From positions 1 to 64,000 of IMG/VR virus record IMGVR_UViG_3300017598_001140: a stretch of DNA of 64,000 nt; one strand, given 5' to 3'. Each line of letters opens with the position of its first letter. Position 1 is the first letter of the stretch. Of this stretch, positions 1,080-63,054 are shown one piece after another. The notes beneath the pieces are model-generated. The model searched no databases. It was not told the origin of the DNA and saw only the letters and a list, made by a program, of their open reading frames with translations. The stretch is from a virus. Made by a program: the position numbers and the translations under genes.

Positions 1080-1454
1080 ATGGCAAAGAATTTTGAAAAT
1101 CTTGAAGGCTTGCGGGATTGGTTGAAAAATCCTGCCGCTGTGAAAAAAGAAAAAGAAAACAGCGGCGGCTATTTCGCGAGAGCTTTTTCTGTCTTCGTTG
1201 AAGAGTGGCCTGCAAACGGAAGGGCTCAAGCAGCCCTAGTTATAAGGCTCAGGGGATTGGGCGGATACGAAAAAGCTTCCGGCGGATTCTTGACGCCTCC
1301 ATTGGGAAAAATAGTAAAGCTGATGCAAACTCCAAAAGTCGATTTGCCTGTATTGGTTTATGGCGGATTGGTGAAACTAGCGGCGGACGCTTATGTTTCT
1401 GAATTGGTTGAAGCAGGGTGTGAAGCGTACGCCATTCTTGAAGAAGAAGAGTAG
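1080..1454 (+). CDS. Unknown protein with N-terminal LRDWL peptide motif
   Basis: A 124-residue protein directly after the preceding stop. Residues 5-15 (FENLEGLRDWL) match a short peptide that recurs in the proteins at 5829, 6226 and 10725 (see findings). The remainder contains hydrophobic helices (VLVYGGLVKLAADAYVSELV) and an acidic end EEEE. No enzyme motif is visible. The start is fixed by the tight spacing; ribosome binding is probably shared with the upstream gene. Function unknown. Confidence 0.65.
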   Translation: MAKNFENLEGLRDWLKNPAAVKKEKENSGGYFARAFSVFVEEWPANGRAQAALVIRLRGLGGYEKASGGFLTPPLGKIVKLMQTPKVDLPVLVYGGLVKLAADAYVSELVEAGCEAYAILEEEE

Positions 1455-1474
1455 CAAAAAACGGAGGTCGGCCG

Positions 1475-1741
1475 GTGTCAAGTTTCGAGAAATGCGGAGT
1501 CTGTGGTTTGAGATACGATGGCTTTAAAACCGGGCTTACTTTTGGCGATGTCTATTCGATGTTTTGGAGCAACGAAAACGACAACAGAACTTTTGTGAAT
1601 AAAAGCCGGAACGTGATTCTTGGAAAGTGGAGTCAAATAAAAAGAGAAATGTGGGAAGAGCATGTCGAATACTGCGAGAGATGCGAAGCGGAATTTGGCG
1701 GCGCTGATATTGTGGAACACGTTGAACGGATAGAGTATTGA
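1475..1741 (+). CDS. Small zinc-ribbon-like protein
   Basis: An 88-residue protein starting at GTG 1475, chosen because GGAGG at 1463-1467 is 7 bases upstream. Two CxxC pairs (CGVC at residues 7-10 and CERC near residue 68) could form a zinc ribbon. No further family assignment is possible. It sits between two other unknown small genes, and the next start is 13 bases after its stop. Confidence 0.65.
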   Translation: MSSFEKCGVCGLRYDGFKTGLTFGDVYSMFWSNENDNRTFVNKSRNVILGKWSQIKREMWEEHVEYCERCEAEFGGADIVEHVERIEY

Positions 1742-1753
1742 AAGGTGGAAAAA

Positions 1754-2188
1754 ATGAGTAGCAATCCAGAAAACAAATTGGTCGGTCAGGCGCTTCGCGA
1801 ATTCGTGACGGCGGGGAAAGCTTTCTTCACTATTCAGAACCCAGAAACGGGGAGCCGTTTTACTTTCAAGATGACGCAGGCAAAAAACAAAAACGGCCCG
1901 TCTCCTCTATGGTTTGTGAGCGTGTTGACCGGGCCTGATAATTACATGAATTATTCGTACATTGGATTTGTTCGGGATTGGATTTTTGTGTACGGCGGAG
2001 AGAAAGCGAAGCTCGGCAGAGAATCGAAAAGTGTAAAGGCGTTTGGCTGGCTGTGGAGGCATCTGGAAAATCCAGCGCCAGCAGTCGTGTGGCATGAAAA
2101 GAAGTGCTGTCGATGCGGTCGCAAACTGACAACGCCGGAGTCGATTGGAAGAGGGATTGGACCGGAGTGCATGAAGGTGGCGTCATGA
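1754..2188 (+). CDS. DUF6011-like zinc-binding protein
   Basis: A 144-residue protein. ATG 1754 is chosen over an in-frame GTG at 1745 because AAAGGTGG at 1741-1748 is a proper ribosome site for it. The C-terminus carries CCRCGRKLTTPESIGRGIGPEC, the typical ending of DUF6011 proteins, a small cysteine-rich domain common in phages and mobile elements. The N-terminal part (KAFFTIQNPETGSRFTFKM, FVYGGEKAKLG) is β-rich. The function of the family is not established. It overlaps the next gene by ATGA. Confidence 0.75.
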   Translation: MSSNPENKLVGQALREFVTAGKAFFTIQNPETGSRFTFKMTQAKNKNGPSPLWFVSVLTGPDNYMNYSYIGFVRDWIFVYGGEKAKLGRESKSVKAFGWLWRHLENPAPAVVWHEKKCCRCGRKLTTPESIGRGIGPECMKVAS

Positions 2189-2547
2189 AAGAGCTAGGCA
2201 AATGTTACGAAATGTCGGGAAAAGTTTTCATGGATCATAGCATGGGTTTTGGTTCGCCGCTCAGAGACGTGCTATCACAGGGTTTCCAGGTTGTATTGGT
2301 GCACGGATTGCCAACGCTTCAAGTGGAGCCGTTTATTAAGTACGGCCACGCATGGCTGGAAATTGGCGAGTCGCTCGTGTACGACGCCGAGAGGGATTTG
2401 GTTATTTTGAAGCATCTGTTTTATGAAGGCGGAGAAATCGATCCGGAGGAGTGCTTTCGGTACGATTTTGAAACTTTTAGGAAGCGGTTGAACAGGTTCA
2501 AACATTGGGGGCCGTGGGACGGCCCAGAAGGCTGTGGGCCAGTGTGA
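2185..2547 (+). CDS. Conserved phage protein with YGHAW and HWGPWD motifs
   Basis: A 120-residue protein. The ATG at 2185 overlaps the upstream stop (ATGA) and has AAGGTGG just upstream, so the longer GTG-initiated frame at 2104 is rejected. It has the pattern I associate with a recurrent but uncharacterised phage family: GKCYEMSGK near the start, VLVHG, KYGHAWLE in the middle, and HWGPWD near the end. Biochemical role unknown. It is the last gene before a promoter-containing gap. Confidence 0.7.
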   Translation: MKELGKCYEMSGKVFMDHSMGFGSPLRDVLSQGFQVVLVHGLPTLQVEPFIKYGHAWLEIGESLVYDAERDLVILKHLFYEGGEIDPEECFRYDFETFRKRLNRFKHWGPWDGPEGCGPV

Positions 2548-2576
2548 AAAAAAGAGAAAATGGATGTCGTATTTTC

Positions 2577-2605
2577 TTGATTTCTGAACTCTAAAATGTG
2601 ATAAT
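2577..2605 (+). promoter_or_regulatory. Predicted sigma70-type promoter with extended -10
   Basis: TTGATT at 2577-2582 and GATAAT at 2600-2605 are separated by 17 bases, and a TGT triplet just before the -10 (2597-2599) gives the extended -10 signature. The predicted start of transcription is near 2612, leaving a 5' UTR of about 110 bases ahead of the radical SAM gene. Inference from base pattern only. Confidence 0.6.
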
Positions 2606-2666
2606 TAAATTGAAGAAAGGGAGAACGGCCAAACAAAAAAATCAACTAGACGAGAGACAACCTAGA

Positions 2667-2699
2667 CATGAAAGGCGAGCAGAGTTTTTGCCTTTCATG
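2667..2699 (+). promoter_or_regulatory. 5'-UTR hairpin upstream of radical SAM gene
   Basis: Ten-base perfect inverted repeat: CATGAAAGGC at 2667-2676 and GCCTTTCATG at 2690-2699, with a 13-base loop. It lies between the predicted promoter and the GAGAGGA ribosome site at 2704-2710, ending 23 bases before the start codon. It is not followed by a T-run, so RNA stability, translational control or an operator are more likely than termination. Confidence 0.55.
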
Positions 2700-2722
2700 A
2701 AGAGAGAGGAAGAGAGAAAATC

Positions 2723-3469
2723 ATGGACGTAATTTACACACCAAAAGGAAGAGCATTGGAGTACGCCGATCACGCATTGAACTTGTTTGAAGGATGCGAG
2801 CACGGCTGCACGTATTGTTACGCACCGTCAGCGATGCGTAGAGACAGAACCGAATACCACGCGACGGCGAAACCGAGGAAAGATATTTTGAAGAGATTGA
2901 AGAGGGATGTTGATAAATTCAAAGAACAAGATCTGTTTAGCAAAGCAGAGAAAAAACCGGAGTCGGTTTTGCTCAGCTTCTCGTCTGATCCGTATCAACC
3001 AATTGAAGAAAAAGTTTGTGTCACTAGGAAGGCAATTGAGCTTTTGCACAGCGTCGGAATAAACGTGCAGATTCTAACCAAAGGCGGGCCGCGAGCCGAG
3101 AGAGATTTTGACCTGTTGAAGTCGTCGGATTTTTTTGCAACGACGATGACATTTTTGGACGAGGACGATTCGATTGAGTGGGAGCCGAAAGCAGCAACCC
3201 CGGCGGAGAGAATTGCAACGATAAGAAAAGCGAAAAAGATTGGAATTCAAACGTGGGTCAGTCTTGAGCCGGTGATAAGCGTCGAGCAGACATTGGCCAT
3301 AATTGACGAGACGCATGAAGAGGTCGATTTGTTCAAGGTCGGAACTCTAAACCACCACGCGCTTTCCAAGACTATCGATTGGAAAAAATTTCGTCGCGAT
3401 GTAGAAGCAAAGCTCAAGTCGTATGGAAAAAATTACTACTTGAAGAAAGATTTGAGGGCGCATGGCTGA
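2723..3469 (+). CDS. Radical SAM protein, SPL/SplB-like
   Basis: A 248-residue protein with the radical SAM cluster-binding motif C25-x3-C29-x2-C32 in GCEHGCTYCYA, which should hold a [4Fe-4S] cluster and cleave S-adenosylmethionine to a 5'-deoxyadenosyl radical. The context (LLSFSSDPYQP, VQILTKGG, TWVSLEPV) is that of the spore-photoproduct-lyase-like group (COG1533) rather than of biotin or lipoate synthases. It is shorter than true SplB. The substrate is unknown; DNA or nucleotide is plausible from the family. It overlaps the ParB-like gene by 8 bases, so the two are co-expressed. Confidence 0.85.
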   Translation: MDVIYTPKGRALEYADHALNLFEGCEHGCTYCYAPSAMRRDRTEYHATAKPRKDILKRLKRDVDKFKEQDLFSKAEKKPESVLLSFSSDPYQPIEEKVCVTRKAIELLHSVGINVQILTKGGPRAERDFDLLKSSDFFATTMTFLDEDDSIEWEPKAATPAERIATIRKAKKIGIQTWVSLEPVISVEQTLAIIDETHEEVDLFKVGTLNHHALSKTIDWKKFRRDVEAKLKSYGKNYYLKKDLRAHG

Positions 3470-4085
3470 TGTAAAAATTGTTAGCGGTATCGAGGTCCAT
3501 TGCTCGTATGACAAAATTGTTCCTGTCAAGAAATTGAGGCCGCGAAAAAAGAACCCGAACAAGCATCCGGAAGAGCAGATTCTTTTGTATGGGAAAGTGT
3601 TGAAAGGGAACGGCTGGCGGCGACCGATAACGGTCAGCAATTTGTCGGGGTTTATAACCAGAGGCCACGGCGCTCGATTGGCTGCGATTGAACTAGGTTT
3701 GAAATCGGTGCCGGTTGATTATCAAGATTACGAATCCGAGGACGCGGAGTGGGCGGATATTTTGGCGGACAATGAGCTGGCGCGAAAAGCGAAAATGGAC
3801 ATGCCAATGGTCGCAGATATTCTCAGCGATTTTGAAGGCGATTTCGACAAAGAATTGACCGGCTACATGGAGGCGGAAATTGATTCATTGGTTGAAGGGG
3901 TATTGGACGGCGTTGAGCATCTTGATTTGGAAGAGGAATTGATTGATTTGAATATGGAGGAAGTAGTGAGGGAGCCGATCTGGGTCGTTGTCCGAACAAC
4001 GGCTGGAAATAAGGACGCGCTTGAAGAGGTTTTTTCTGTTTTGAAAAACAACAAAAAAATAAAGATTGAGAAGAGCTATGATTGA
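3462..4085 (+). CDS. ParB/Srx-fold domain protein
   Basis: A 207-residue protein whose N-terminal half has the ParB/sulfiredoxin-fold pattern: RKKNPNKHPEEQI, then RRPITV, then ITRGHGARLAAIELG with the GHGAR box at residues 68-72, then VPVDY and ILADNELARKA. In phages this domain is often fused to or beside DNA methyltransferases, and in plasmids it binds CTP. No helix-turn-helix follows, so it is not a canonical partition protein. The C-terminal part is acidic, then ends in a small α/β segment (EPIWVVVRTTAG). It overlaps both neighbours. Exact activity unknown. Confidence 0.8.
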   Translation: MADVKIVSGIEVHCSYDKIVPVKKLRPRKKNPNKHPEEQILLYGKVLKGNGWRRPITVSNLSGFITRGHGARLAAIELGLKSVPVDYQDYESEDAEWADILADNELARKAKMDMPMVADILSDFEGDFDKELTGYMEAEIDSLVEGVLDGVEHLDLEEELIDLNMEEVVREPIWVVVRTTAGNKDALEEVFSVLKNNKKIKIEKSYD

Positions 4086-4725
4086 AATCCAAACGGATAA
4101 CAGCGCGGCCGGTTTCAAGTCGGATTTGAGAAAAAAATACACAACAGAAAAAAGCAGAGTGCTGGATTTGTTTTGTGGCTCCGGTGCCATGTACAAGCTC
4201 GCGTATGAAGGGCGAGTAAAAAAATATCACGGCGTCGACAAAGAGAAGATTCACGATGAAAAAATTTGCACGCTAACAGACAACACAAGCTTTGTAAAAA
4301 GCAGAGACATAAGCGGCTACAACGTTTTTGATTTGGACGCCTACGGCGACCCTTGGAAGCTTCTATATCTGATTTTGCAAAAGGCTCCGGATAGGCCGTT
4401 GGTGATTTTTTTAACGGACGGAAACAGAAAGCGGTTTGTGAGGTATCAGGCATTGACGAGAGTTCTGAGAGCCAGTGAAAATATAAAAGTCGGAATGGAG
4501 ATTCCGAACCTTGCAAATTTTTATGAAGAAATTGTGTCAACTTATCTCTTGAAAATAACGGAGTTGACCGGGCGCAAAATCAAGTTGGCCCGGTACGCAT
4601 TGAAAGCAAAATTGAGCGGCGACGAGTCGGGGAATAATCGAGCCGATACAGTCGCTTATTGGGTCGTAAAAATTAAACGAAAAAAGGAGAAAGCAAATGT
4701 CAGAAGAAGAAAAGAAAAATCGTAA
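4078..4725 (+). CDS. Putative SAM-dependent methyltransferase fold protein
   Basis: ATG 4078 overlaps the upstream stop and is preferred to an in-frame TTG at 4066. The 215-residue protein has a glycine-rich SAM-binding motif I (DLFCGSG, residues 30-36), an acidic residue ending the second strand (YHGVD, D54), and a DLDAYGDPW segment (residues 85-93). This recalls the DxDPY/F-G loop of N2-guanine methyltransferases but has Ala in place of Pro. A target on DNA or RNA is possible but not shown. The operon with radical SAM and ParB-like genes suggests a joint modification function (inference). Confidence 0.65.
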   Translation: MIEIQTDNSAAGFKSDLRKKYTTEKSRVLDLFCGSGAMYKLAYEGRVKKYHGVDKEKIHDEKICTLTDNTSFVKSRDISGYNVFDLDAYGDPWKLLYLILQKAPDRPLVIFLTDGNRKRFVRYQALTRVLRASENIKVGMEIPNLANFYEEIVSTYLLKITELTGRKIKLARYALKAKLSGDESGNNRADTVAYWVVKIKRKKEKANVRRRKEKS

Positions 4726-4930
4726 GTCGAAGAAGGCGGCGGTTAAGGCAAAGTTGGAGGCGCTCGAAGCAGAAATTTTGGAGTTGAAAAAGAGCAAGGA
4801 TGCTTTGATCAATTCTCTCACGGCATCAGAGCAGGCGAGCCAAGTATTTATTCGGGAATTGAAGGAACACTGGAGATCGCAGATTCGCTTGAAATGGTCT
4901 TGGATTTTCCCGACGATCAAAAAACTGTGA
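4697..4930 (+). CDS. Short coiled-coil protein
   Basis: A 77-residue, highly charged protein with a strong site (AAAAAAGGAGAAAGCAA before ATG 4697). Residues 10-45 (KSKKAAVKAKLEALEAEILELKKSKD) form a clear heptad coiled coil. It overlaps the end of the methyltransferase-like gene by 29 bases and overlaps the next frame by 37 bases. Function unknown. The final 20 residues might be out of the natural frame (see findings). Confidence 0.6.
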   Translation: MSEEEKKNRKSKKAAVKAKLEALEAEILELKKSKDALINSLTASEQASQVFIRELKEHWRSQIRLKWSWIFPTIKKL

Positions 4931-5139
4931 TCCGGCTCGCGGTGTGCGCGCTTCGTGGTCGAAGCATTGCTTCGTTTTTGTCGGATTACAAGCAGCAGGC
5001 GGACGACTCCGAAGACGGCGGGTACACGGGAGAGAAAGTGAAGAAAACACCTGCTAAACCTAACAAGTCGAACGGCGCAAAAAAAGCCAAGTCAACCGGC
5101 GGAAACAGCAAGGGTAAAACACTGGCCGCGCCTGCTTGA
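4894..5139 (+). CDS. Small basic-tailed protein, start uncertain
   Basis: This 81-residue frame starts inside the preceding gene. No good ribosome site precedes ATG 4894, and sensible coding (GIEGTLEIADSLE) continues upstream in the same frame, so either a non-ATG start or a frameshift from the previous frame is possible. The N-terminal 35 residues look folded; the rest (KKTPAKPNKSNGAKKAKST) is a Lys/Pro/Gly-rich disordered tail. Function unknown. Confidence 0.5.
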   Translation: MVLDFPDDQKTVIRLAVCALRGRSIASFLSDYKQQADDSEDGGYTGEKVKKTPAKPNKSNGAKKAKSTGGNSKGKTLAAPA

Positions 5140-5237
5140 ACCAATCCCTTTTTTCTTTCCAAAAAAATATTTTCAAGAGTCGTAAAAATCAACTGCTAGA
5201 TTGCTAATCCAATCATATAAGGCAAGGAGGTGCGAAA

Positions 5238-5588
5238 GTGGAGGAGAAAATTTTCAAGTGCAAGCAGTGCGGAAAATGCTGTCAGGCTTTTGAGGTCGGC
5301 GCGGTCGGCGAAGATTGGGCGGAGAAGATTGGATTCGAGCACATGTATGTGGACGTGGTTGACGATTTTTATATAAAAAGAGTCAGGCGCGATTGGGCTT
5401 TTTCGTGGGCTGTCGATGGGGTGTGTAAATTCTTAACGGAAGAATTGAAATGCTCAATCCACGACAGGAGGCCGCTCGTGTGTAATTGGTGGGAATGTCG
5501 CGGCACAAAAAAGAGCCGCTTGAACAAGGCGATCAAAGAGCTGAAAGTGAAAAGCGAAAATGAGCAAGAGCAAAAAAAATCTGCTTAA
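5238..5588 (+). CDS. YkgJ-family cysteine-cluster protein
   Basis: GTG start at 5238 directly after a near-perfect AAGGAGGTG site. The 116-residue protein begins with CKQCGKCC (C8, C11, C14, C15) and continues with VCKFL, CSIHDRRPLVC and WECRG, the pattern of the YkgJ / UPF0153 zinc- or iron-chelating family. Such proteins often accompany modification and metal-handling genes, but no reaction is established. It overlaps the next gene by 29 bases. The upstream gap (5140-5237) has A/T tracts but no convincing promoter. Confidence 0.8.
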   Translation: MEEKIFKCKQCGKCCQAFEVGAVGEDWAEKIGFEHMYVDVVDDFYIKRVRRDWAFSWAVDGVCKFLTEELKCSIHDRRPLVCNWWECRGTKKSRLNKAIKELKVKSENEQEQKKSA

Positions 5589-5823
5589 TGTTTTGGAGCA
5601 GGAGTGCGAAAGAGTGGAGGCGATTTCAAAGTACCTTTTGAAAAAAAAGAACGGGCCGCAAAATCCTATTGTTGGGATGCAAGTCACAATGGCGTCGAAT
5701 TGTTTGCGGGTGGCTTGCTACGCTGCCGGGAAAGAGCAAGGCGACGGAATCGACAAAGGCGCATTGGCTAAGCAGTTTGTCGATTTTCTAGGCGACCAAG
5801 AGCAGATAGCCGGGAAGGTATGA
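5560..5823 (+). CDS. Hypothetical helical protein
   Basis: An 87-residue protein that starts inside the end of the YkgJ-like gene, without a strong ribosome site (weak AAGCGAAA), so translation is probably coupled. It is helical, with a basic N-terminal third (LLKKKNGPQNP) and an acidic C-terminus (FVDFLGDQEQIAG). No family recognised. Confidence 0.6.
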   Translation: MSKSKKNLLNVLEQECERVEAISKYLLKKKNGPQNPIVGMQVTMASNCLRVACYAAGKEQGDGIDKGALAKQFVDFLGDQEQIAGKV

Positions 5824-5828
5824 AAAAA

Positions 5829-6107
5829 ATGGAAGCGACAACTTTTGAAAGTGTGGAGGCGCTGAGAAATTTTTTTAGAAGCGGGTGTCCCGTGCCGGAG
5901 CGAAAACCGGCGAAGGTTGAACCGGTAGATCCGTCGTTGCTAGAGGCGATGAGAGAGGTCACTTCCGAAGAGGTTGTACAGGCGGAAAGGTCGGCCGGTT
6001 TAAAAGTGCCTTGGTACATGCCGACGACAAAAGATTGGGATAGGGTTGAAAGCTTGTCAAAAAAGAAAAACATGATCACGGCGACAAGGGCGCATCTTGA
6101 AGCATAA
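5829..6107 (+). CDS. Unknown protein with N-terminal LRNFF peptide motif
   Basis: A 92-residue protein. ATG 5829 is 10 bases from GGGAAGG (5812-5818), whereas the in-frame ATG at 5820 touches that site; 5820 remains possible because it overlaps the upstream stop. It starts METTF-like (MEATTFESVEALRNFFRSG), a copy of the recurring FxSxExLRxWL peptide, followed by GCP just as in the gene at 6226. The rest is polar and probably largely unstructured up to PWYMPTTKDWDRVESL. Function unknown. Confidence 0.6.
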   Translation: MEATTFESVEALRNFFRSGCPVPERKPAKVEPVDPSLLEAMREVTSEEVVQAERSAGLKVPWYMPTTKDWDRVESLSKKKNMITATRAHLEA

Positions 6108-6166
6108 AAGATCCACGCAAGGCGGCTCGGCGTGGGTGGGCTGCTGAGAAAAAAGATCGGCCGATT

Positions 6167-6229
6167 ATGGCGAAAATATTTTTCGATAGGTATCACGAAT
6201 TGATGAAGGCTCCGTGCTGGAAAAAATGA
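6167..6229 (+). CDS. Possible 20-residue microprotein
   Basis: A short frame encodes MAKIFFDRYHELMKAPCWKK and ends in TGA at 6227-6229, overlapping ATG 6226 of the next gene in the ATGA arrangement typical of this genome. It has only a weak ribosome site (GATCGG). It may be a leader peptide that couples translation, or chance. The 106-base gap that contains it also has a 6-base inverted repeat, CCACGC (6113-6118) / GCGTGG (6130-6135). Confidence 0.25.
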   Translation: MAKIFFDRYHELMKAPCWKK

Positions 6230-6678
6230 ACGAGCCGAAAACATTTGGGAGCATCGGCGAGCTTCGCGATTGGATTCGTGGAGGCTGTCCAATGGGCGTG
6301 GTAGTCGGTGAGGTTGAAGCGCCAAAAACAAAAAAGAAAAAATTTGTCGAGCGTCGTTCTCTCGAAGTTTCTTTCGATCCGCGAGTCGCAGGAAAAAAGC
6401 CGGAGGCGCGAAGATTGAAGCCGGAGTTTAGCGCGGTGGAAAGGGACAGGCTGCGCGTGGTCGTTTCGGACGTGGTTGAAGAGGTTGTGGTGGTCGGCGA
6501 TCTCGTTGCGAAAGTGACGGCGGCTATTTCCACGGAAATGGCAATGTGGCCGGTGCTCAGGTTGAACGAAATTTTTTGTGTCGATGTCGAAAAGGTTCCG
6601 GTGAGAGTGGCTATCCGTGCCGATGAAGAAAAGCACGGAATCGAGCTGTCTTTTTTTGTTCAAAAGTCTGCAAAGTAA
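6226..6678 (+). CDS. Unknown protein with N-terminal LRDWI peptide motif
   Basis: A 150-residue protein; an alternative GTG start at 6214 would add four residues (GAAGG at 6205-6209 would serve it). Residues 7-17 (FGSIGELRDWI) are another copy of the recurring peptide, followed by RGGCP as in the gene just upstream. A basic linker (KTKKKKFVERRS) leads to a helical/β segment. No enzymatic motif seen. The two neighbouring motif proteins are probably paralogous at least in their N-termini. Confidence 0.65.
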   Translation: MNEPKTFGSIGELRDWIRGGCPMGVVVGEVEAPKTKKKKFVERRSLEVSFDPRVAGKKPEARRLKPEFSAVERDRLRVVVSDVVEEVVVVGDLVAKVTAAISTEMAMWPVLRLNEIFCVDVEKVPVRVAIRADEEKHGIELSFFVQKSAK

Positions 6679-6728
6679 ATCTGAAAAATGCAAGATAATT
6701 TGACTTTTTCGGAGGAAGATTTATCTTT

Positions 6729-7085
6729 ATGGAAAGAGGCAGTCGCTTGAAGGCGAAAGGGAAACAGGAATTGCAGTCGAAAAACGAAACACCAGAAGCA
6801 GCCAGAAATAGTTTCGGGCTTGTTTTGTCTGGATTCGATAAAGGTGCCACAAGGCAACACAAAGTCGTTATGGATCAGCTAACCCTACATATCGTAAATC
6901 TGGCCCAAGAGGAACACGGGCGCTTTCACGGCGTTCTCAGGGGTAAGATCCGGTTTGTTTTCCCTAGCAAAGAGCATGCGATCCGTTTTATGCAGGCTGT
7001 GCACGATGATTTCCCGTCTGTGAACCTACAAGCTTGCAGCGAATGGAAACGAGTAGACGTTCAGAACATGACCGCCGCCGCCTGA
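6729..7085 (+). CDS. Hypothetical protein with atypical codon use
   Basis: A 118-residue protein; GGAGG at 6711-6715 is 13 bases from the ATG, further than usual. Leucine is often written CTA or CTG here (for example in the segment MDQLTLHIVNLAQ), whereas neighbours strongly prefer TTG and CTT, suggesting a separate origin. The C-terminal half (GVLRGKIRFVFPSKEHAIRFM) looks like a small α/β fold. No family recognised. Confidence 0.6.
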   Translation: MERGSRLKAKGKQELQSKNETPEAARNSFGLVLSGFDKGATRQHKVVMDQLTLHIVNLAQEEHGRFHGVLRGKIRFVFPSKEHAIRFMQAVHDDFPSVNLQACSEWKRVDVQNMTAAA

Positions 7086-7092
7086 TTTTTTT

Positions 7093-7114
7093 CGCTTCAA
7101 GTAGCGTTTTTTTT
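7093..7114 (+). terminator. Weak intrinsic terminator candidate
   Basis: A 4-bp stem CGCT (7093-7096) / AGCG (7103-7106) is followed by eight T residues (7107-7114), right after the 6729 gene. The stem is short, so termination would be weak. Confidence 0.4.
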
Positions 7115-7128
7115 CTTTTCATTTTTTT

Positions 7129-7156
7129 TCACCACGGCGGCTCCAAAACTGGTCAG
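7129..7156 (+). repeat. 28-nt leader repeat, copy 1 (upstream of clamp gene)
   Basis: A 28-base element beginning TCACCACGGCGGCT, matching 18667-18694 at 24 of 28 positions without gaps. It ends 18 bases before the clamp start codon. A shared promoter, operator or RNA leader is likely; which one cannot be told. Confidence 0.6.
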
Positions 7157-7174
7157 AAGTTTTGAGGTGAAAAA

Positions 7175-8362
7175 ATGAAAATAAACAGGAAAGCATTACA
7201 GGCCGCTTTGGCTGAATTCTCAAAAATCGCGGACAAAAAACAACCGGACAAAATGTTCAGAAGTGTTCGCTTCAACTCGACAAAAAAGGGGACGTGTCAT
7301 TTGGCGGCGTGCTCTGAAAATGTTTTTGCGAAAAACGTTCTCAAGTGCTCGGAGGTTGGTGAGGACGAGAGGCCGGTTGAAGATGTGTGGTTTGATGTTT
7401 TGTTGCTGAAAGCTTTGGCGTCTGGGCGGTGTGAAAAAGATGAGTCGGTCGAAATTTATTCGGATGGGACTTTGGGCGCGGCCAAGGTTGTTTGTGATGG
7501 AATCGAAGCGAGTTTGAAAGTGGTTGATTCGTCGGAGTTTCTTTTTGATGCTCCAAGAGGCTGGCGCGAATTTATAGAGCTGGATGCAAAAGCTCTTTCC
7601 GGTGCGCTGGAGTATGTTTTGCCGGTTGTTGATTTTAAAGAAAAGCGAAAAAATATTGCTGGTGTTTTTTTTGATTCGGTTGAAAGCTCTGTTGTTGCTA
7701 CCGATGGGCATTCTTTGCACGTTGCAAAGTTTGAGTTTCGCGGAGACGAAGTTGAATCGTTTTCGGTCGTAAGCGGAGTCGAATCGGTTGCGAGGGTTTC
7801 GAAGAAAATTTCAAAAAATTCTGTCTGTAAATTTGCGCTTGCAAAGGGCGAGAATCCTGAGTGGGTTAATTTTCGTTTTGTCGATGTTGACGCGGTGAGT
7901 ATTTGGGAGGTTGCGGTTCGTACAAACGAAGAAGAGTATCCGCCCTATGAAGAGCTGGTTCCGAAAAAAAACCCTGTCATGTTTTTTGATTCGAGGGAAC
8001 TTGAAAAACGCTTAAAGCATATCGCCAAAATCAAGGCGGAAACAATTGACATTTTTATTGGTGAGAAAAGAGCTACGTTTCGAACTTTGTTTTCTGAAGT
8101 TGGCGATTTAGTTTTGGACGTTCCTTTTTCTTCAAGCGAGTGTGAAGAAGGCCAGGAATGTCGTTCGCAACTCGATCCGAAATTGCTTGAACTTTCTGTG
8201 GCGAATACAGGTGGCGAAGTAGATGTGTCTTTTTCGCTTAGCAGTGAAGATCCGAACGCTGCGCTTCGTGTCGACGTTGGCGAAAAATTTGTGGCCGTCG
8301 TTGCTCCTGTGAAGTACCTTGAGCTTGACGACGAAGACGACGAAGACGACGTAGAGGAGTAG
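7175..8362 (+). CDS. dnaN: DNA polymerase sliding clamp (β-clamp-like)
   Basis: A 395-residue protein close to the usual length of the bacterial β clamp (about 370). The clamp signature of the second domain is clear: KALSGALEYVLPVVDFKEKR followed by VVATDGHSLHVAKF (TDG at residues 176-178). The third domain ends near VAVVAPVKYLELDD, equivalent to the VMPMRL end of cellular clamps, then adds an acidic DDEDDEDDVEE tail. It would form a ring on DNA and tether the replicative polymerase. GAGGTG lies 7 bases before ATG 7175. The nearest replication genes are 51 kb away in this window, so it may be regulated separately. Confidence 0.85.
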   Translation: MKINRKALQAALAEFSKIADKKQPDKMFRSVRFNSTKKGTCHLAACSENVFAKNVLKCSEVGEDERPVEDVWFDVLLLKALASGRCEKDESVEIYSDGTLGAAKVVCDGIEASLKVVDSSEFLFDAPRGWREFIELDAKALSGALEYVLPVVDFKEKRKNIAGVFFDSVESSVVATDGHSLHVAKFEFRGDEVESFSVVSGVESVARVSKKISKNSVCKFALAKGENPEWVNFRFVDVDAVSIWEVAVRTNEEEYPPYEELVPKKNPVMFFDSRELEKRLKHIAKIKAETIDIFIGEKRATFRTLFSEVGDLVLDVPFSSSECEEGQECRSQLDPKLLELSVANTGGEVDVSFSLSSEDPNAALRVDVGEKFVAVVAPVKYLELDDEDDEDDVEE

Positions 8363-8414
8363 AACCCCGTTTTCGAAAAATTTTGTTTTGTAACTTTTTT
8401 GAATTAGAATCGTG

Positions 8415-8442
8415 TTCGTGATTTTTTTATTGGTGGTATAAT
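8415..8442 (+). promoter_or_regulatory. Predicted extended -10 promoter ahead of packaging/late genes
   Basis: Perfect TATAAT at 8437-8442 preceded by TGG (8434-8436), the extended -10 signature. A weak -35, TTCGTG at 8415-8420, lies 16 bases upstream. It lies in the 124-base gap after the clamp gene and about 45 bases before ATG 8487, so it could drive the whole late operon. Confidence 0.65.
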
Positions 8443-8486
8443 GTAGGGGCGTTCGCAAATAAAGAAGCTGATTGGAAGTCGAATAA

Positions 8487-9158
8487 ATGAAATTAACAAA
8501 AGCGCAATTGAAGGAAGCTGCGGCGACTATTTACAACAAGTTGTCTGACGGTTTGACGGACAAAGAAGTCATTGAAGATATGGGGTTGGCTGTCGACGAA
8601 TACATGGTGTTGAAAGAGGCGATGTTAGACCAGAAAGCGGATGAGGTTAGGTCGCGCCCCCATGAGCATATTTATATCGAGTACATGATAGCGCAAACCG
8701 GAAACGTTCGTGACCTTACGGACATGATCGATTCGCTTCACAAAAAAAAGCAGTACTCTGCATTGGTTAGCGCAGTGCGAGCCCGGTCTGATATTTTGGA
8801 CAGATTGGTGGAGAAGGGCCAGGAGTTTGGTCTTATACACAAAACGCCTGAGAGGAAAGAGATAGTTGCAGGTGTAATGATTGCCGAGCTTTCAAATACA
8901 GAATTGAAAAAATTGATTCTTGGAGAGCTTGGAATGTTGAACGATTTGAGAAAGCAGTTTGGCGAGAAAAATTTTGCAGAGGTCAAAGAAGAAAACGACA
9001 TACATTACGGGAGGGCTTTGCCTCCGAAACCGGAGAGCGAAGAAGGTGCCAAAGTGCTTGGCAAAAACGAGGTGCCGAAACACAACAAAGCAAACGCAAG
9101 CAAAGTAAGAAAGGGGCGTCGTGTTCTAAGAAAACCGGCACCGATAAACGTGGAGTAA
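8487..9158 (+). CDS. Putative terminase small subunit / HTH protein
   Basis: A 223-residue protein with GGAAG before ATG 8487. The N-terminal region (YNKLSDGLTDKEVIEDMGLAVDEYMVLKEAML) reads as a helix-turn-helix of the type found in small terminases, followed by a helical core (RARSDILDRLVEKGQEFGLI) and a basic disordered tail (KANASKVRKGRRVLRKP). It is the first gene after the predicted late promoter, five kilobases before TerL. The role is inferred from the fold-like pattern and position; a general DNA-binding regulator is the alternative. Confidence 0.45.
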   Translation: MKLTKAQLKEAAATIYNKLSDGLTDKEVIEDMGLAVDEYMVLKEAMLDQKADEVRSRPHEHIYIEYMIAQTGNVRDLTDMIDSLHKKKQYSALVSAVRARSDILDRLVEKGQEFGLIHKTPERKEIVAGVMIAELSNTELKKLILGELGMLNDLRKQFGEKNFAEVKEENDIHYGRALPPKPESEEGAKVLGKNEVPKHNKANASKVRKGRRVLRKPAPINVE

Positions 9159-9751
9159 TGAAAAAACCAAAAAAGTATTTTATTGTTTATTTAATCTGTT
9201 TGCCGAAAGACATTATCACTTGGTTGGCGGTTTTGTTTATTTGGATTTTCTGGGGGACCAAGCTGCATTGGCTGGATGGATTGTGGTGCGAATTAAAACC
9301 TCATTCTTGGCCAGCTAGAACGTGGTATCGGATCAAGGTTGGAGGCAAGCACATGAGGCGACCCGTCAGCGTCCAAGCGGAACGCGGCGAGTGGTTTACG
9401 TGGGGAGGTACAACGTTGGGCCACGGCGGTTTTTACGGGCCAGGCAGTTCCGGCGGCAAGGGTATCGATACAGAGATCGAGTTCCACGAACATGTGCATG
9501 TTGAACAGTTTGTGGCGGCGATGATAATGTCATTGGTTCAGGCGTTGATCTCGTTGTTGTTTGTCGGCTTGTCTGGCGATTGGACGACGGGCGTTCAATT
9601 GGCGCTTGTTCTTTGGGTCATTGGTGGTTTTCTTTTTGCGGCGGCTGGTTGGCTAACAGCTTGGCTGAGAGGCGAAGATCCGTACAGGGGAAGTTTTCAC
9701 GAAGAGGCGGCGTATTCTCTAACCAGAGAAGAAGTGGAGCGAAGAAGATGA
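9158..9751 (+). CDS. Membrane protein with HExxH zincin-like motif
   Basis: A 197-residue protein overlapping the upstream stop (TAATG). Three hydrophobic segments are visible: about residues 10-33 (IVYLICLPKDIITWLAVLFIW), 118-138 and 145-168. Between the first two lies a soluble part ending in H110-E111-H112-V113-H114, an HExxH motif typical of zinc metallopeptidases, with a later FHEEAAY segment (around residue 180) as possible third ligand. It resembles uncharacterised phage proteins with HEHVHVEQ sequences. Catalysis is not proven. Likely sits in the inner membrane. Confidence 0.65.
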   Translation: MKKPKKYFIVYLICLPKDIITWLAVLFIWIFWGTKLHWLDGLWCELKPHSWPARTWYRIKVGGKHMRRPVSVQAERGEWFTWGGTTLGHGGFYGPGSSGGKGIDTEIEFHEHVHVEQFVAAMIMSLVQALISLLFVGLSGDWTTGVQLALVLWVIGGFLFAAAGWLTAWLRGEDPYRGSFHEEAAYSLTREEVERRR

Positions 9752-10728
9752 AGCGTATAACTTTTAAAAAATTTGCAGGTGTTCGGAAAAGAGGAACCGT
9801 GGCGATAGAACCGCCGAAAACGCTATTGCATATTGACCGCGCAGTTTGGTTAACCTGCCTCGTGGAGAGCGGCGGAAAATTCGGGTGCGTGATCAATTTT
9901 GACGGAACCGGAATGACGGCAAGTATTGGACAGTCGATTGCTGTTTTTCCAAGGGCGCTTGGAGACGACACAAAGAAAAACGACCAAGGGCCACTGTGGA
10001 AGGTTTTGCACAGGATAAATTCTTTGCCCGGAGAGCTTGAAGCGATGGAAGAATTGAAAGAGGCTTTGCGAGGTGAAGGTTGGTTTGTTTCTAATGATGG
10101 AAAATGTCGTTACATAGAAACCGGGAAGCTGGTTTCTGGTCGAAAAATAAGAGAAGAATTTTCTGGAGATGTAAACGGTCTTATGCCAATCAAAGGACCG
10201 GGAAAGCGTAGAACGGAAACGTGGGTTAGATTGTTTCATAACCTTTTTGCGTGTCCATGTACTTTTGAGCTTCAACTTGCTTTAGAAAAAGAGCACTTTG
10301 TGAAACGTGCAACCAGAATAAAATTGCGATTTTGTAAAAACGAATTATTGCAAAAAGAGACAATGCAAAAAGCGATTTACGATCCGGTTCATATCAGCGC
10401 GATCACAGTTGATCAAATGGGTTTGGAAATGGATCTCGCAATGTCGATGTACTGGAGTCATTCTGTGAACGCACCGTCCTTTGCTTTGAAGAAATTTTGT
10501 AGGCAGGTTTTGGACAAACCGCAATACGGACGCTCAGAAACAACCAACGGCGAAGCGGCGTTGGCAAAGCACATAATCAAGAAGCTTGGCAACACAACTT
10601 TTGGCCGTTGGGATGATGACATAAAGCACGGGCGCTATCAGAGGACTAGGGCGCACGCGATGAAACTTTGGCCAAGAGAATTGTTTGTTGGTTCGAGCGC
10701 AATCATGCCGATTAATTTGATTGGATGA
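9748..10728 (+). CDS. Conserved phage protein with VESGGKFG motif
   Basis: ATG 9748, overlapping the upstream gene by ATGA with GGAG at 9737-9740, gives 326 residues; the longer frame from 9580 is spurious overlap. Near residues 33-55 is WLTCLVESGGKFGCVINFDG, where ESGG recalls the catalytic-glutamate region of lytic transglycosylase-like folds, and GTGMTASIGQ could be the GLxQ-like part. The rest is helical without recognisable domains. A virion-associated muralytic role is possible but weakly supported; I have seen similar proteins annotated only as hypothetical. Confidence 0.6.
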   Translation: MKRITFKKFAGVRKRGTVAIEPPKTLLHIDRAVWLTCLVESGGKFGCVINFDGTGMTASIGQSIAVFPRALGDDTKKNDQGPLWKVLHRINSLPGELEAMEELKEALRGEGWFVSNDGKCRYIETGKLVSGRKIREEFSGDVNGLMPIKGPGKRRTETWVRLFHNLFACPCTFELQLALEKEHFVKRATRIKLRFCKNELLQKETMQKAIYDPVHISAITVDQMGLEMDLAMSMYWSHSVNAPSFALKKFCRQVLDKPQYGRSETTNGEAALAKHIIKKLGNTTFGRWDDDIKHGRYQRTRAHAMKLWPRELFVGSSAIMPINLIG

Positions 10729-11561
10729 AGGGCGTATCGAAAGAGAAACCGGTGAAGAAAAAAACGGTGAAAAGCAAGTTAAGAGAAAAGATGTCGGCTG
10801 GATGGATGACAGTGCCTTCTGGGGCTGAAATCGTGCCGCCAGATCATCCTATGTGTCGGTCAATTGTAGAGCTGATTGGTGACGATTTGCCGGTGGTCAA
10901 CGACGGAGCAATGGTTGGTCGTTTTGTTCGAGAGGAGCCAAAAACTTACAGGGTGGATCTTCGCGTGTCTGACAATGTTGTTTTTGATATAGAGAGGAAT
11001 GGTAGAGGTGCTGTCGAGCATTTTTTAAAAGAGGAAATGATTAAGCGTGGTTTTGATTTTTCTGCTGGCGCACGTTACCCGATACAAAGAGATAGGGACA
11101 TAACAACTGGAGAAACGATTTTCGTTCAGCAGATCACGGAAGAGCATTATGAAAAATTCGAGGCTGAAAGAGATCCGCCGCCATTGGCTCCGCCACCTGG
11201 ATGGGAACCAGGAGAAGACAGGGTTTTTCCAAAGAGTTTTTTTAACGGCGTTGAAGCGAATAAAGAAACCGGCAAAATAATGGGGGAAGAAGTCGTGAAG
11301 GCTTCGGAAAAATTCAGAGCTGACATAGAAAAAGATATGAGAGATGCGATTATGATCGGGGTCGAAGCTCTTTCGAAACATAGGCACCCGACTGCTAAAG
11401 GACCGGCGGCGCCACCGAACAAACCAGTGGAGCCGCCGGAGGGTCCAAAAAAAGTTTTCAAAAAACCGTCAGGTTTGAATTTAAAAGACGAGCCAGAGGG
11501 GCCAAGAAGTTTTGGCTCGCTTGAAGAGCTTCGGGATTGGTTGAGAGAAAAAAACCAGTAA
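10725..11561 (+). CDS. Unknown protein with C-terminal LRDWL peptide motif
   Basis: A 278-residue protein starting at an ATGA overlap. After a basic N-terminus (KPVKKKTVKSKLREK) comes a mixed domain, then a Pro-rich stretch (PPPLAPPPGWEPG, KGPAAPPNKPVEPPEGP), and the final residues 263-273 are FGSLEELRDWL, the recurring peptide seen at the N-terminus of three early genes. Here it is displayed at the end of a flexible tail, consistent with a docking peptide. Function unknown. Confidence 0.65.
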   Translation: MKGVSKEKPVKKKTVKSKLREKMSAGWMTVPSGAEIVPPDHPMCRSIVELIGDDLPVVNDGAMVGRFVREEPKTYRVDLRVSDNVVFDIERNGRGAVEHFLKEEMIKRGFDFSAGARYPIQRDRDITTGETIFVQQITEEHYEKFEAERDPPPLAPPPGWEPGEDRVFPKSFFNGVEANKETGKIMGEEVVKASEKFRADIEKDMRDAIMIGVEALSKHRHPTAKGPAAPPNKPVEPPEGPKKVFKKPSGLNLKDEPEGPRSFGSLEELRDWLREKNQ

Positions 11562-19160: not shown

Positions 19161-19583
19161 TTGGAAACAGAAATTTGTGGGCAAAAAGAAGAATTCAGTA
19201 TCTTTGTTCCCATAGCAAAAGCAAACAAAGAAGAGCACACCGTGACAGGCGTTGTGCTTCAACCAGAAGTAACAGACGCTCAGGGCGATATTATGTCGGC
19301 CAATGTCATCAAACAGGCCGCGCACGATTTTCTCTCAAAGTACAATAAAAAAACAGAGCTTGGCTTCATGCACAAAAGTTTTAAGCGGCGTTTCGAGCTG
19401 CTTGAATCTTACGTTGCGCCAATGGATTTTGTTTTGAAAAGTGCTGTCATAAAAGCGGGTTCATGGATTGTGACCGTCAGGGTAAAAGAGACGAAAGTTT
19501 GGAAGATGATCAAGGACGGAAACATAACGGGGTTTTCGATTGGTGGGAAAGCAAAAGTTGTCATGGTGGAAGCTAATGACTAA
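19161..19583 (+). CDS. Prohead protease, XkdF-like
   Basis: TTG 19161 is favoured because TGGAG (19150-19154) is 6 bases upstream; an in-frame GTG at 19149 is the alternative. The roughly 140-residue protein carries the PBSX XkdF (peptidase S78-like) pattern: TGVVLQPEVTDAQGDIMSANVIKQAAHDFL, then GFMHK, a VAPMDF segment, and GSWIVTVRVKETKVWKMIKDGNITGFSIGGKA. The histidine of GFMHK and a serine in GFSIGG are the likely catalytic parts. It would mature the prohead. The scaffold-like gene follows and overlaps. Confidence 0.75.
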   Translation: METEICGQKEEFSIFVPIAKANKEEHTVTGVVLQPEVTDAQGDIMSANVIKQAAHDFLSKYNKKTELGFMHKSFKRRFELLESYVAPMDFVLKSAVIKAGSWIVTVRVKETKVWKMIKDGNITGFSIGGKAKVVMVEAND

Positions 19584-20496
19584 TAAAACTAAAAGGCGTT
19601 TTGTGGCGCTTGCAGTCGACGAACTTTCGCTGGTGGATACGCCAGCTAACGAAAAAGAATTTGCCGTTGTCAAGCGGCTACAAACGGAGGAAGAAATGGC
19701 AATCGAAAAAGATACCAAAGTAGAGAAAGGCTCTGCCGAGGAAACCGACGAAAAAAGCATTGAGAAAAAAGCCGTTGGCGACGGTGTTGAGAAGGTAGAA
19801 ACAGAGGTTCCGGATACCAACGACGAAGCTGTCGAAAAAGCGATGGGGAAAGTCGTCGAAATGGTTGAAGGGATTGTCAAAAAATCCGAGAAAAAGAAGG
19901 AAGAAAAAGCCGAGGACGAGGACGAAGCCGAAGCCGAAGAAGAAGGCGGCGGAAAGAAGAAAGCGAAAGCGGAAAAGAAAGCGACTCCGCGAGAAGTTTT
20001 TGAAGAGCAGATGAAGAAAAACGGCGTGAAAGATGACGCGCTGAAAACTGCGCTTGAAGCCTTCGACGATTCGGCTGGCGTGGAGAAATCCGAAAAGCCC
20101 GAAGAAGAGGTTGAAAAGAGGAAGGACGACGAGGTTCTTGAGGCGCTTGAAGCTTCCATTGGAAAAGCCAAGAGATTCACGCCCGGCCGCATGGACACTT
20201 TGAAAAACGCCATTGGAACTTTGCAAAAACTTCTCGGCGAATTGACGCCTGCGGAAAAAGCAGTGGAAGAGGCCACAGAGGGAGCGCTTGAAGGCGGTTT
20301 AGGCTCGGCGGTTGCGAAGGCTCTCAAAGAATTCAACGTCAAACTCGACGGCGTGGTAGAGACTCAGAAAAATGTCGGCGAGAGAGTCAAGGAAATAGAA
20401 GAGGCGAGGAATCCGTCAGCGTCATTGGAAGAGGATGGCGAAACAGATACGGACGTGGTTGAAACAGAAAAAAGTCTTTGGAAGGGTGTTATCTAA
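19576..20496 (+). CDS. XkdF-like C-terminal half / scaffold protein
   Basis: ATG 19576 with GGTGGA upstream overlaps the protease stop; the frame from 19540 is longer but lacks a site. The 306-residue protein starts RRFVALAVDELSLVDTPANEKEFAVVKR, which in XkdF-type proteins continues the protease, followed by a long acidic/lysine-rich, coiled-coil region (EKKEEKAEDEDEAEAEEEGG) typical of capsid scaffolds. It probably assembles the prohead and is degraded by its upstream neighbour. Protease and scaffold here are separate genes rather than a fusion. Confidence 0.75.
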   Translation: MTNKTKRRFVALAVDELSLVDTPANEKEFAVVKRLQTEEEMAIEKDTKVEKGSAEETDEKSIEKKAVGDGVEKVETEVPDTNDEAVEKAMGKVVEMVEGIVKKSEKKKEEKAEDEDEAEAEEEGGGKKKAKAEKKATPREVFEEQMKKNGVKDDALKTALEAFDDSAGVEKSEKPEEEVEKRKDDEVLEALEASIGKAKRFTPGRMDTLKNAIGTLQKLLGELTPAEKAVEEATEGALEGGLGSAVAKALKEFNVKLDGVVETQKNVGERVKEIEEARNPSASLEEDGETDTDVVETEKSLWKGVI

Positions 20497-23092: not shown

Positions 23093-23440
23093 ATGGCGCG
23101 GAGTCTTCAAAAATTAAAGCAGATTGATACGCCGTTAGGGTACGACGATCAGAGGACCGGAGCCGAAGTTTCAAACACAGAAACAACGGCCGACGATTTG
23201 GAAAAAGTTTTCCACGGCATGCTGAGCCAGTTGAAGCGAATTATTCACGGTGAAGACGCCGGGAATTGGTTCGATAATATCAACTCTGTTTTTGGTGAAG
23301 ACGTTTCTTTAAAAGCTCTGTTGGCAAAGATTGGAACCGGCGGTGGTGGTGGTATTGATGAAGATAAAATCTTGGTAGAGCGAACAACAGGATTGGTTAT
23401 GATTCTCCGCGCTACCGGAAATGTATTGGTGAGAAGATGA
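23093..23440 (+). CDS. Small protein preceding the giant fibre gene
   Basis: A 115-residue protein that starts at the base after the preceding stop and overlaps the giant fibre start by four bases (ATGA), so it is likely translationally coupled to it. Helical in its first half (DDLEKVFHGMLSQLKRIIHG), with a GGGGG hinge near residue 83 and a β-strand end. It may be an adaptor or anchor for the fibre, by context only. Confidence 0.55.
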   Translation: MARSLQKLKQIDTPLGYDDQRTGAEVSNTETTADDLEKVFHGMLSQLKRIIHGEDAGNWFDNINSVFGEDVSLKALLAKIGTGGGGGIDEDKILVERTTGLVMILRATGNVLVRR

Positions 23441-44004: not shown

Positions 44005-45161
44005 TGAGTTTATTGGACAAACCGGGAGATGCGACATTAGCTCCGAAGTTTTCTTTGAACGTTGGTCCCGGCGAAGGCGAACCGCTTAAATCGGGTATTG
44101 CTGAAATGATTGGAACGGCTAAATACGAGAGCTACGATGGAATGGCGGACATGATGCGCCTTCAAATGAAAAATCCCGGCGGCGAAATTTCAAACGCAAA
44201 AGTGTTTCAACCCGGCAACGAGGTTTCTCTTTATGGCGGGTACGGCAAAAGCAATCTTGGGTACATTGGAAGGACGATAATTGTCCGGCAAACACCGAAC
44301 TTCCCAGAGAACGGCGTGCCTACATTGGAAGTCATTGGATACACAAAAGATTCTAAGATGATGGACAACGAGCCTGAAGGCTCAACCGCTAGGACGTATG
44401 CGGTAACAGAATACAGCGGTGTTTTGGACATTGTTTGCGGAGCATACGGCTTCGAGCTTGACGCAGACCCGTACACTGTTGGAGGGCCAAAAGATCTGTT
44501 GCAAAAAGTGGGCGTTTCGGATTACGAATTTGTAAAAGGTTTGGCGAATATTACTGGATATATTTTCTGGGTTGATGCGGATGAAAAAGGCGTTTGGACT
44601 TTGCACTTTAAAGACCCGGAAAAAATGGTCGAGCAAGAAAAAAAGTACACGTTCAAATATAATTTCGGAGACGGCGGAACATTGTTGTCTTTCAAGCCAG
44701 AGGTTTTGATAAAAGGCGCGAAAACAAAAATCGTTGCAAAAACAATGGACCCGTTTACCGGAAAAGTTTTGGCGGCAGAAATCGAAGAGACAGACGCTAA
44801 AAAATCGCCGGAATTAGAGGCGACAGGAGATCAAGACGGGCCGGTTGAAAAAAGCTATCCGTCCGGAAGCGCGGTCAAATTATATTTGAACGATTTTGCT
44901 TTTGAAGTTGTATCGACAAAAGATTTCAAAACAGAAGTGGAATTGGCGCATTGGGCGAAGCAATGGTTTAAAAGGATGCGCGATAACTTCGTGCTTGCTC
45001 AGGGCAAGTTGGTTGGCGTCGAAAATATGCGAGCGAGACAAACGCACGCATTGGAAGGAACAAGCCCGGCTTATGACGGCGATTATTACTTCACGAAAAT
45101 AGAACATGTGTTTATTGAATCCGGATACACATTGACCTTCGGCGGAAGGAAAGTGGTTTAA
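44004..45161 (+). CDS. Baseplate hub protein (late control D / gp27-like)
   Basis: A 385-residue protein. FSLNVGPGEGEPLKSGIAEMIGTAKYESYDG, FQPGNEVSLYGGYG and the segment VLDIVCGAYGFELDADPY match late-control-D/XkdQ-like hub proteins, which form the trimeric hub under the tube. It precedes the spike gene and overlaps it by one base, which fits a stoichiometric complex. Confidence 0.8.
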   Translation: MSLLDKPGDATLAPKFSLNVGPGEGEPLKSGIAEMIGTAKYESYDGMADMMRLQMKNPGGEISNAKVFQPGNEVSLYGGYGKSNLGYIGRTIIVRQTPNFPENGVPTLEVIGYTKDSKMMDNEPEGSTARTYAVTEYSGVLDIVCGAYGFELDADPYTVGGPKDLLQKVGVSDYEFVKGLANITGYIFWVDADEKGVWTLHFKDPEKMVEQEKKYTFKYNFGDGGTLLSFKPEVLIKGAKTKIVAKTMDPFTGKVLAAEIEETDAKKSPELEATGDQDGPVEKSYPSGSAVKLYLNDFAFEVVSTKDFKTEVELAHWAKQWFKRMRDNFVLAQGKLVGVENMRARQTHALEGTSPAYDGDYYFTKIEHVFIESGYTLTFGGRKVV

Positions 45162-63034: not shown

Positions 63035-63036
63035 AA

Positions 63037-63048
63037 GGGGGGGGGGGG
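63037..63048 (+). repeat. G12 homopolymer tract
   Basis: Twelve consecutive G directly after the helicase-loader stop and 6 bases before ATG 63055, at the place where a ribosome site would be. I noticed no other G run of similar length in the window. Confidence 0.85.
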
Positions 63049-63054
63049 AAGTCG

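Follow-up and report, generated by a model that had tools for sequence, protein, structure and literature searches.

We describe a short peptide that recurs at the ends of unrelated proteins in a phage genome, IMG/VR record IMGVR_UViG_3300017598_001140. The record is 79,530 bases long, and its first 64,000 bases are the window analysed here. As judged by sequence comparison, the peptide (LEELRxW-type forms such as FGSLEELRDWLREKNQ and MPTLEEMRQWMRGKKIDGFP) is terminal, conserved at the level of the peptide and found lineage-wide; within a genome, the copies on unrelated proteins change together. We infer that it is a terminal client tag read by an AAA+/VWA machine encoded by the phage itself, a reading to which we give a probability of about 0.55.

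Four copies lie in the window, all in frame within plausible genes of the plus strand, as a preliminary description had reported. Copy 1, FENLEGLRDWL (1092-1124), forms residues 5-15 of a 124 amino acid protein (1080-1454). Copy 2, FESVEALRNFF (5844-5876), is followed by RSGCP at the N-terminus of a protein of 92 or 95 amino acids (5829-6107, or from an alternative ATG at 5820), and copy 3, FGSIGELRDWI (6244-6276), is followed by RGGCP at the N-terminus of a 150 amino acid protein that runs from ATG 6226 (or GTG 6214) to 6678. Copy 4, FGSLEELRDWL (11511-11543), stands at the C-terminus of its protein (10725-11561), behind a proline-rich linker, and is followed by REKNQ and the stop codon. A fifth copy, M-PTLEEMRQWMRG (MPTLEEMRQWMRG), lies beyond the window at 72807-72845 of the record and forms the first residues of a gene (72807-73889) that is directly upstream of dnaE (73899-77699, also beyond the window) and encodes an ExoX-like C-terminal domain. 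The five copies comprise four at N-termini, none further than approximately 20 residues from the start, and one at a C-terminus, five residues from the stop. No Pfam or PHROG match reached the cut-off for the proteins bearing copies 1-4, homologue searches with the first three detected none, and PADLOC gave no informative match. Direct searches of viral contigs with the copy-4 protein, a clamp-like protein and the motif alignment found no relatives, and tblastn of phage records with the short peptide returned no match.

The four peptides are real and their recurrence is not due to chance. They score 32-44 when all six frames are scanned with BLOSUM, and the next best score is 22. Each 11-mer of the predicted proteome was then scored by its best matches in three other genes; FGSLEELRDWL ranked first (124 versus 98±3.4, with a maximum of 107, in 40 residue shuffles), and the same test itself revealed the fifth copy. 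A search within the phage's own proteome aligned the N-termini of the copy-2 and copy-3 proteins over 21 residues (E = 0.003), which bears out the shared R-S/G-GCP noted earlier behind these two copies; no similarity between the two proteins was found beyond the aligned residues. Control phages of 50-174 kb give 0-2 terminal profile matches each, and the strongest recurrences among them, QERLKEL in T5 and CANCHR in FelixO1, are presumably pieces of paralogous domains. A lone pair of similar 11-mers would be unremarkable in a proteome of this size; the weight rests on recurrence together with terminal position and conservation in relatives.

Using the phage DnaE as a query we retrieved 80 loci, many of which have a gene upstream of dnaE that starts with the tag, e.g., MPTLDELRRWARGETVEGLPP, VPSIEEMRKWLQGHDVDGLPE and MPTLEEMQRWLRGEDVEGFPE; behind the tag come a linker that varies and the ExoX-like C-terminal domain. 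This family keeps the tag in all 11 relatives that were aligned (in a weaker form in one of them), with M1 and E6 invariant and R8, W10, G13 and P20 nearly so. In this family a linker that varies divides the motif from a separate domain behind it; the preliminary description would have been refuted by a motif that was part of distinct larger domains. In a structural model of the dnaE-upstream protein, residues 4-11 form a helix; the predicted local distance difference test score (pLDDT; mean only 58) is approximately 94 over residues 1-20, after which confidence falls ahead of the ExoX-like domain. According to this model the tag is probably helical. Conservation in relatives, which had been set as a test of the motif, is also seen for the copy-4 gene, which has a 39% identical homologue in relative G012 (86601-86966, minus strand) that is likewise terminated by the tag (FDTVEEMREWLKSRQT). 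A closer relative (L003/L005) lacks the whole gene, and the two conserved genes that flank it lie approximately 155 bp apart there. As a separate observation on this gene, a DLIAWLAAHTHPTGMGPSGPP-like stretch of a spike-like protein recurs in two others, the positions in the window being 45161-46021, 63031-63609 and 10725-11561.

We examined the large contigs of approximately 15 phages of the tag lineage, which have terminase, portal, capsid, sheath and replication genes in common with the phage and form one lineage with it in a tree. The scans took open reading frames rather than curated genes, because greedy gene calling dropped genuine short genes; IMG/VR contigs may moreover be fragments. 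Profile scans found further N-terminal copies on other small proteins, e.g., MPSLEALRDWFRG, MKLEELRQRLRE and MNLDDLRKKARG, and further C-terminal copies on other proteins, whose last residues before the stop are FDTVEEMREWLKSRQT, TLEQLRDRWRQ or SLDALRRRFLS. Some relatives carry at least four copies at N- or C-termini. A leave-one-out profile with a threshold of at least 12 bits was applied to 14 genomes, all of which carry the ATPase described below except G008, whose contig stops before that region. It gave 40 N-terminal and 9 C-terminal matches, a few of the matches being due to chance (e.g., one within the phage's own DnaB-like gene). The match rate per 100,000 sequence windows was 15.6 at N-termini, 7.2 at C-termini and 1.65 internally. 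Matches are present in 13 of the 14 lineage genomes; the exception, G021, is empty with the general profile and has two copies of its own variant of the tag. C-terminal copies lie at the stop or a few residues away in G000, G012, G018, G022 and G025. Relatives retrieved with the terminase looked motif-free, partly because their short contigs miss the early region; L006/G003, on a contig that lacks this region, has one weak near-C-terminal candidate (L006:4238-4291, ending FASLSEIAEFLRSKKEE). Two more distant DnaE-bearing contigs (L041:133 and L081:488) have the tag-like MAEKLEEIRKWAKG and MGESIDSLRAWAKD, respectively, approximately 20-30 residues before the stop.

The search of the rest of the genome and of related phages that had been recommended for the motif thus yielded the fifth copy before dnaE and many terminal copies in relatives. 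The tag recurs in non-homologous proteins beyond chance, and homologues of its bearers keep it in stretches that lie outside the folded domains (the ExoX family and the copy-4 gene). These comparisons make it a short linear motif of protein termini that is spread through the lineage.

Do the copies within one genome resemble each other? Copies on non-homologous proteins score 25.1 BLOSUM units within a genome versus 17.5 between genomes (0 of 5000 label permutations), with the caveat that the copies were gathered by profile and that some of the small genes may be paralogues that went unnoticed. The concordance within genomes also holds for the copy on the ExoX protein against all other copies (P = 0.001), and an earlier, smaller set of copies showed it as well. 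Genome-specific forms include RxW in G000 and G012, LRxRF in G025 and LRxKARxG in G023. At the conserved positions the codons belong to different families (Ser AGT/AGC/TCG; Arg CGG/AGA/CGC/CGA; Leu TTG/CTG/CTT), which shows conservation of the peptide and not of a DNA element or block. For the same reason, the proposal of the preliminary description that the motif moved between genes by recombination is unsupported. Its proposal of a docking peptide for one common partner fared better: the motif is kept in homologues and covaries on unrelated proteins within genomes, as a putative docking peptide would.

What might read the tag? Among the phage's 87 genes, only two are present in all 11 tagged and in neither of the two untagged large-contig relatives. 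They encode an AAA+ ATPase (66477-67691 of the record) and a VWA protein (67789-69867), both beyond the window. The relatives that lack the ATPase, G006 and G013, have no tags. In a held-out test, G022 and G025 were picked for the ATPase alone, and G014, which is a twin of G022 on a shorter contig starting within the VWA gene, was added; all three proved to be tagged, with copies at N-termini and others exactly at C-termini. The reader would accordingly be sought in the phage's own AAA+/VWA pair. The preliminary description, which left the partner open, had listed the host clamp, RNA polymerase and proteases among the proteins to co-fold with the peptide; these results favour the phage pair over them.

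The ATPase is a CobS/CbbQ-like member of the MoxR group with AAA_5 (PF07728) and CbbQ_C domains, and it matches the structures of Midasin, CobS, CbbQ and NorQ by sequence. It has an N-terminal zinc finger of the Ros/MucR type, which is above the Pfam cut-off in relative G021 and weaker in the phage itself. The adjoining VWA protein is CobT-like and consists of an N-terminal metallopeptidase-like region with a DHExxH motif (invariant in 11 aligned sequences of the lineage), an acidic linker and a VWA domain with a MIDAS motif (DxSxS). Its profile matches are CobT and NorD, and the best fold matches of the VWA domain are NorD and the MIDAS domain of MDN1. An AAA_5/CbbQ-type ATPase gene adjoining a MIDAS VWA gene is the layout of a MoxR AAA+/VWA pair. 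The phage pair has the same ATPase and VWA families as NorQ-NorD, CbbQ-CbbO, RavA-ViaA, CobS-CobT and Midasin; it differs from them in the added zinc finger and in that no CobN was found. CobN (PF02514), the subunit that would make the pair part of an aerobic cobaltochelatase CobNST, was absent from 10 phages including this one, while control genomes matched. Cobalt chelation is therefore disfavoured, a host CobN being possible. No MoxR AAA+/VWA pair known to us relies on a set of related short tags at the ends of many clients.

Such pairs occur in cultured phages as well. The cobT-cobS genes adjoin dnaE in Rhizobium RHEph10, Pseudomonas nickie, Stenotrophomonas ANB28 and Salmonella SSU5, and they adjoin clamp or clamp-loader genes in cyanophage S-SM1. 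The LEELRxW tag was not found in the cultured pair-bearing phages. An unbiased search of protein ends detected a different C-terminal tag, [FYI]Gx[WF](A/S), on unrelated proteins of four of them, each with cobST next to dnaE: RHEph10 (JX483881) and RHph_N1_10 (MN988505), which have NPNFGRF or similar ends, nickie (MG018927), which has DFGGWA, and ANB28 (PQ434692), which has NYGxW. Counted at the exact C-terminus with at most one further residue allowed, [FYI]Gx[WF] occurs 13 times in ANB28, nine times in nickie, seven times in RHEph10 and eight times in RHph_N1_10, where 0.5-0.9 are expected; 15 of 17 other genomes have no such end, and SPO1 and G022 have one each. The zinc finger of the ATPase is present in the phage's own lineage, nickie and ANB28 and is degenerate in RHEph10. 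The HExxH of the CobT-like protein is present in RHEph10, SSU5, S-SM1 and ICP2 and is changed in nickie and ANB28 (DSEISKV and DREVSTL), so that the metallopeptidase-like region of the latter two is probably inactive. It is tempting to hypothesize, at somewhat less than even odds, that tailed phages with a zinc-finger CobS/CobT-like pair encode a private address code, i.e., a terminal peptide on many accessory proteins that is read by the machine, is specific to each phage group (a LEELRxW/R helix, or a C-terminal FGxW or FGRF) and changes on all clients together.

How might the machine use the tag? In the mechanism we propose, the tag would be a short amphipathic helix, approximately [F/M]-x-[ST/K]-[LIV]-[ED]-[ED]-[LIM]-R-x-[W/R/K]-[L/F/A]-[RKQ], that sits at the very start or the very end of many small, mutually unrelated proteins, usually joined by a linker, and recruits its bearers to the MoxR-type AAA+/VWA machine. 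Recognition might take place either through the zinc-finger domain of the ATPase, which would bind the helix, or through the conserved acidic residues of the tag at the metal site of the VWA domain; in NorD, an acidic client residue is believed to bind at the MIDAS of the VWA domain (PMC9976466). The recruited clients might then be remodelled, assembled or unfolded, and possibly cleaved. In NorQD, ATP hydrolysis has been proposed to twist the VWA partner, not to thread the client (PMC13036017). Proteolysis is possible where the HExxH is kept and would not be general.

Several observations weigh against a tag that is read by the AAA+/VWA pair. SSU5, S-SM1, ICP2 and Listeria P70 have the pair, and a search for any terminal peptide found no recurrent terminal tag in them; none of their terminal recurrences is much above shuffles, and that of P70 consists of two near-identical starts and is not a multi-protein tag. 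The pair is thus insufficient for a visible tag. Since the SSU5 ATPase has the zinc finger (the ATPases of S-SM1, ICP2 and P70 are without this domain), the zinc finger as tag reader is only a lead. The FGxW tags are unlike LEELRxW, so a single reader site would need to have changed greatly. Because the HExxH is lost in the tagged nickie and ANB28, proteolysis is not a conserved function. There are just two untagged large-contig relatives, G006 and G013; they are near the phage in the tree and are possibly sisters (support 0.44), so that the correlated loss of tag and pair may be a single event. Moreover, the AAA+, VWA and ExoX-tag genes are close together and could have been lost jointly.

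The alternative that survives best is a common docking tag with another reader, which would recruit the tagged proteins to sites of replication or transcription: the replisome (DnaE, helicase, primase or clamp), a phage sigma-like factor or a host factor. The gene directly before dnaE belongs to the best conserved of the tagged families, and elsewhere the neighbours of cobT-cobS are dnaE or, in the cyanophage, clamp and clamp-loader genes. However, DnaE, helicase and primase are also present in the untagged G006 and G013, as is the sigma-like gene in G013, and a host factor would leave the joint absence of the AAA+/VWA genes and the tags unexplained; we consider another reader unlikely, if worth keeping in view.

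A stronger form of the client-tag reading would make the peptide a degron, with the AAA+ ring unfolding tagged proteins and the zincin-like VWA region cleaving them, i.e., a phage-encoded AAA+ protease. Known tags of AAA+ unfoldases, such as ssrA for ClpX, are similarly placed at termini, and the invariant DHExxH in the 11 relatives and the HExxH of RHEph10, SSU5, S-SM1 and ICP2 would suit a peptidase. The many terminal tags of nickie and ANB28, which are without the HExxH, argue otherwise, as does the proposed twisting of the VWA partner by NorQD in place of threading (PMC13036017), and a degron seems doubtful to us. Still less probable is a homotypic assembly helix, by which the tag would bind itself and tagged proteins would co-assemble with no separate reader: the amphipathic pattern, the predicted helix and the within-genome concordance fit self-recognition, but the match with presence and absence of the AAA+/VWA genes and the predictions made from the ATPase would go unexplained. 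Finally, coincidence arising from the common composition of protein starts (MKLEELR and other helical starts are frequent, some of the MKLxxLR type look generic, and by our own estimate single 11-mer pairs are expected in a proteome of this size) is largely refuted by the shuffle test, the terminal enrichment, the concordance, the exact C-terminal copies, the conservation in 11 relatives and the few terminal matches in control phages.

Terminal tags are known from other systems. ClpX and ClpXP recognize short signals at either terminus (ssrA, lambda O, MuA), and ClpX is an AAA+ machine whose N-terminal zinc-binding domain helps choose substrates. The phage tags are like these in being short terminal signals, read, if our reader is the right one, by an AAA+ protein with a zinc-binding domain; they differ in that the ATPase family is unrelated, that the genome encodes them on many phage proteins and that their form depends on the phage lineage. 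In T4, the capsid-targeting sequence is an N-terminal peptide on otherwise different phage proteins that is cleaved by the prohead protease. Here too an N-terminal peptide is shared by otherwise different proteins, but that of T4 is N-terminal only, whereas exact C-terminal copies occur here and the bearers are among early or accessory genes. A capsid-targeting sequence of the T4 type was rejected, given the C-terminal copies in the five genomes listed above.

The gene pair itself is already known. A viral pair called cobST has been suggested to synthesize cobalamin together with the CobN of a host (Liu et al. 2021, PMC8651126), and a MoxR-vWA-metallopeptidase pair of group 2.2 jumbo phages to act in virion assembly (Iyer et al. 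2021, PMC7824862). The passages of these papers that deal with the pair describe, as here, an AAA+ protein and a VWA partner that has a metallopeptidase region at its N-terminus; they differ in describing no client or tag, whereas here there is a candidate client set. Where the sources touch on annotation, the pair is labelled in many phages as cobalamin or porphyrin biosynthesis. What would be new is a set of candidate clients, defined by a tag, for an AAA+/VWA chaperone pair; no description of such terminal tags was found in the open-access papers searched. CobS/CobT-like genes in hundreds of phage genomes bear the cobalamin label, which the literature examined does not show to be correct, and a readable terminal tag gives both a list of clients and a simple binding test. 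If the client-tag reading is true, phages encode machinery for handling proteins that has an address code of its own, written on many unrelated proteins; featureless phage proteins could be placed in one process by their tag alone, and a widespread "cobalamin" gene pair would be given its true role. The cultured RHEph10 and nickie make the idea testable now.

Other recurrences and features were observed along the way. A second recurrent C-terminal peptide, K-S-[FL]-W-x-G-V-[LI], ends the protein before the major capsid gene (window 19540-20496, EKSLWKGVI) and is also present in G012 at 63520 and 53693 (minus strand; a second protein in G012), in G013 at 51723 (minus strand) and in G016. The motif K-x-x-x-I-[IL]-KPG-[EQ]-F-[FL]-LVS is common to two proteins, at 64945-65214 and 70913-71746 of the record (L002). 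A 2435 amino acid protein (window 23437-30744) contains many repeats of approximately HASDHENGGADEISVAGLSG and has matches in G006, G013 and G019. In several relatives (L022-L026, L032 and L035), the dnaE match is approximately 0.8-1 kb longer than the dnaE of the phage, which suggests an insertion such as an intein.

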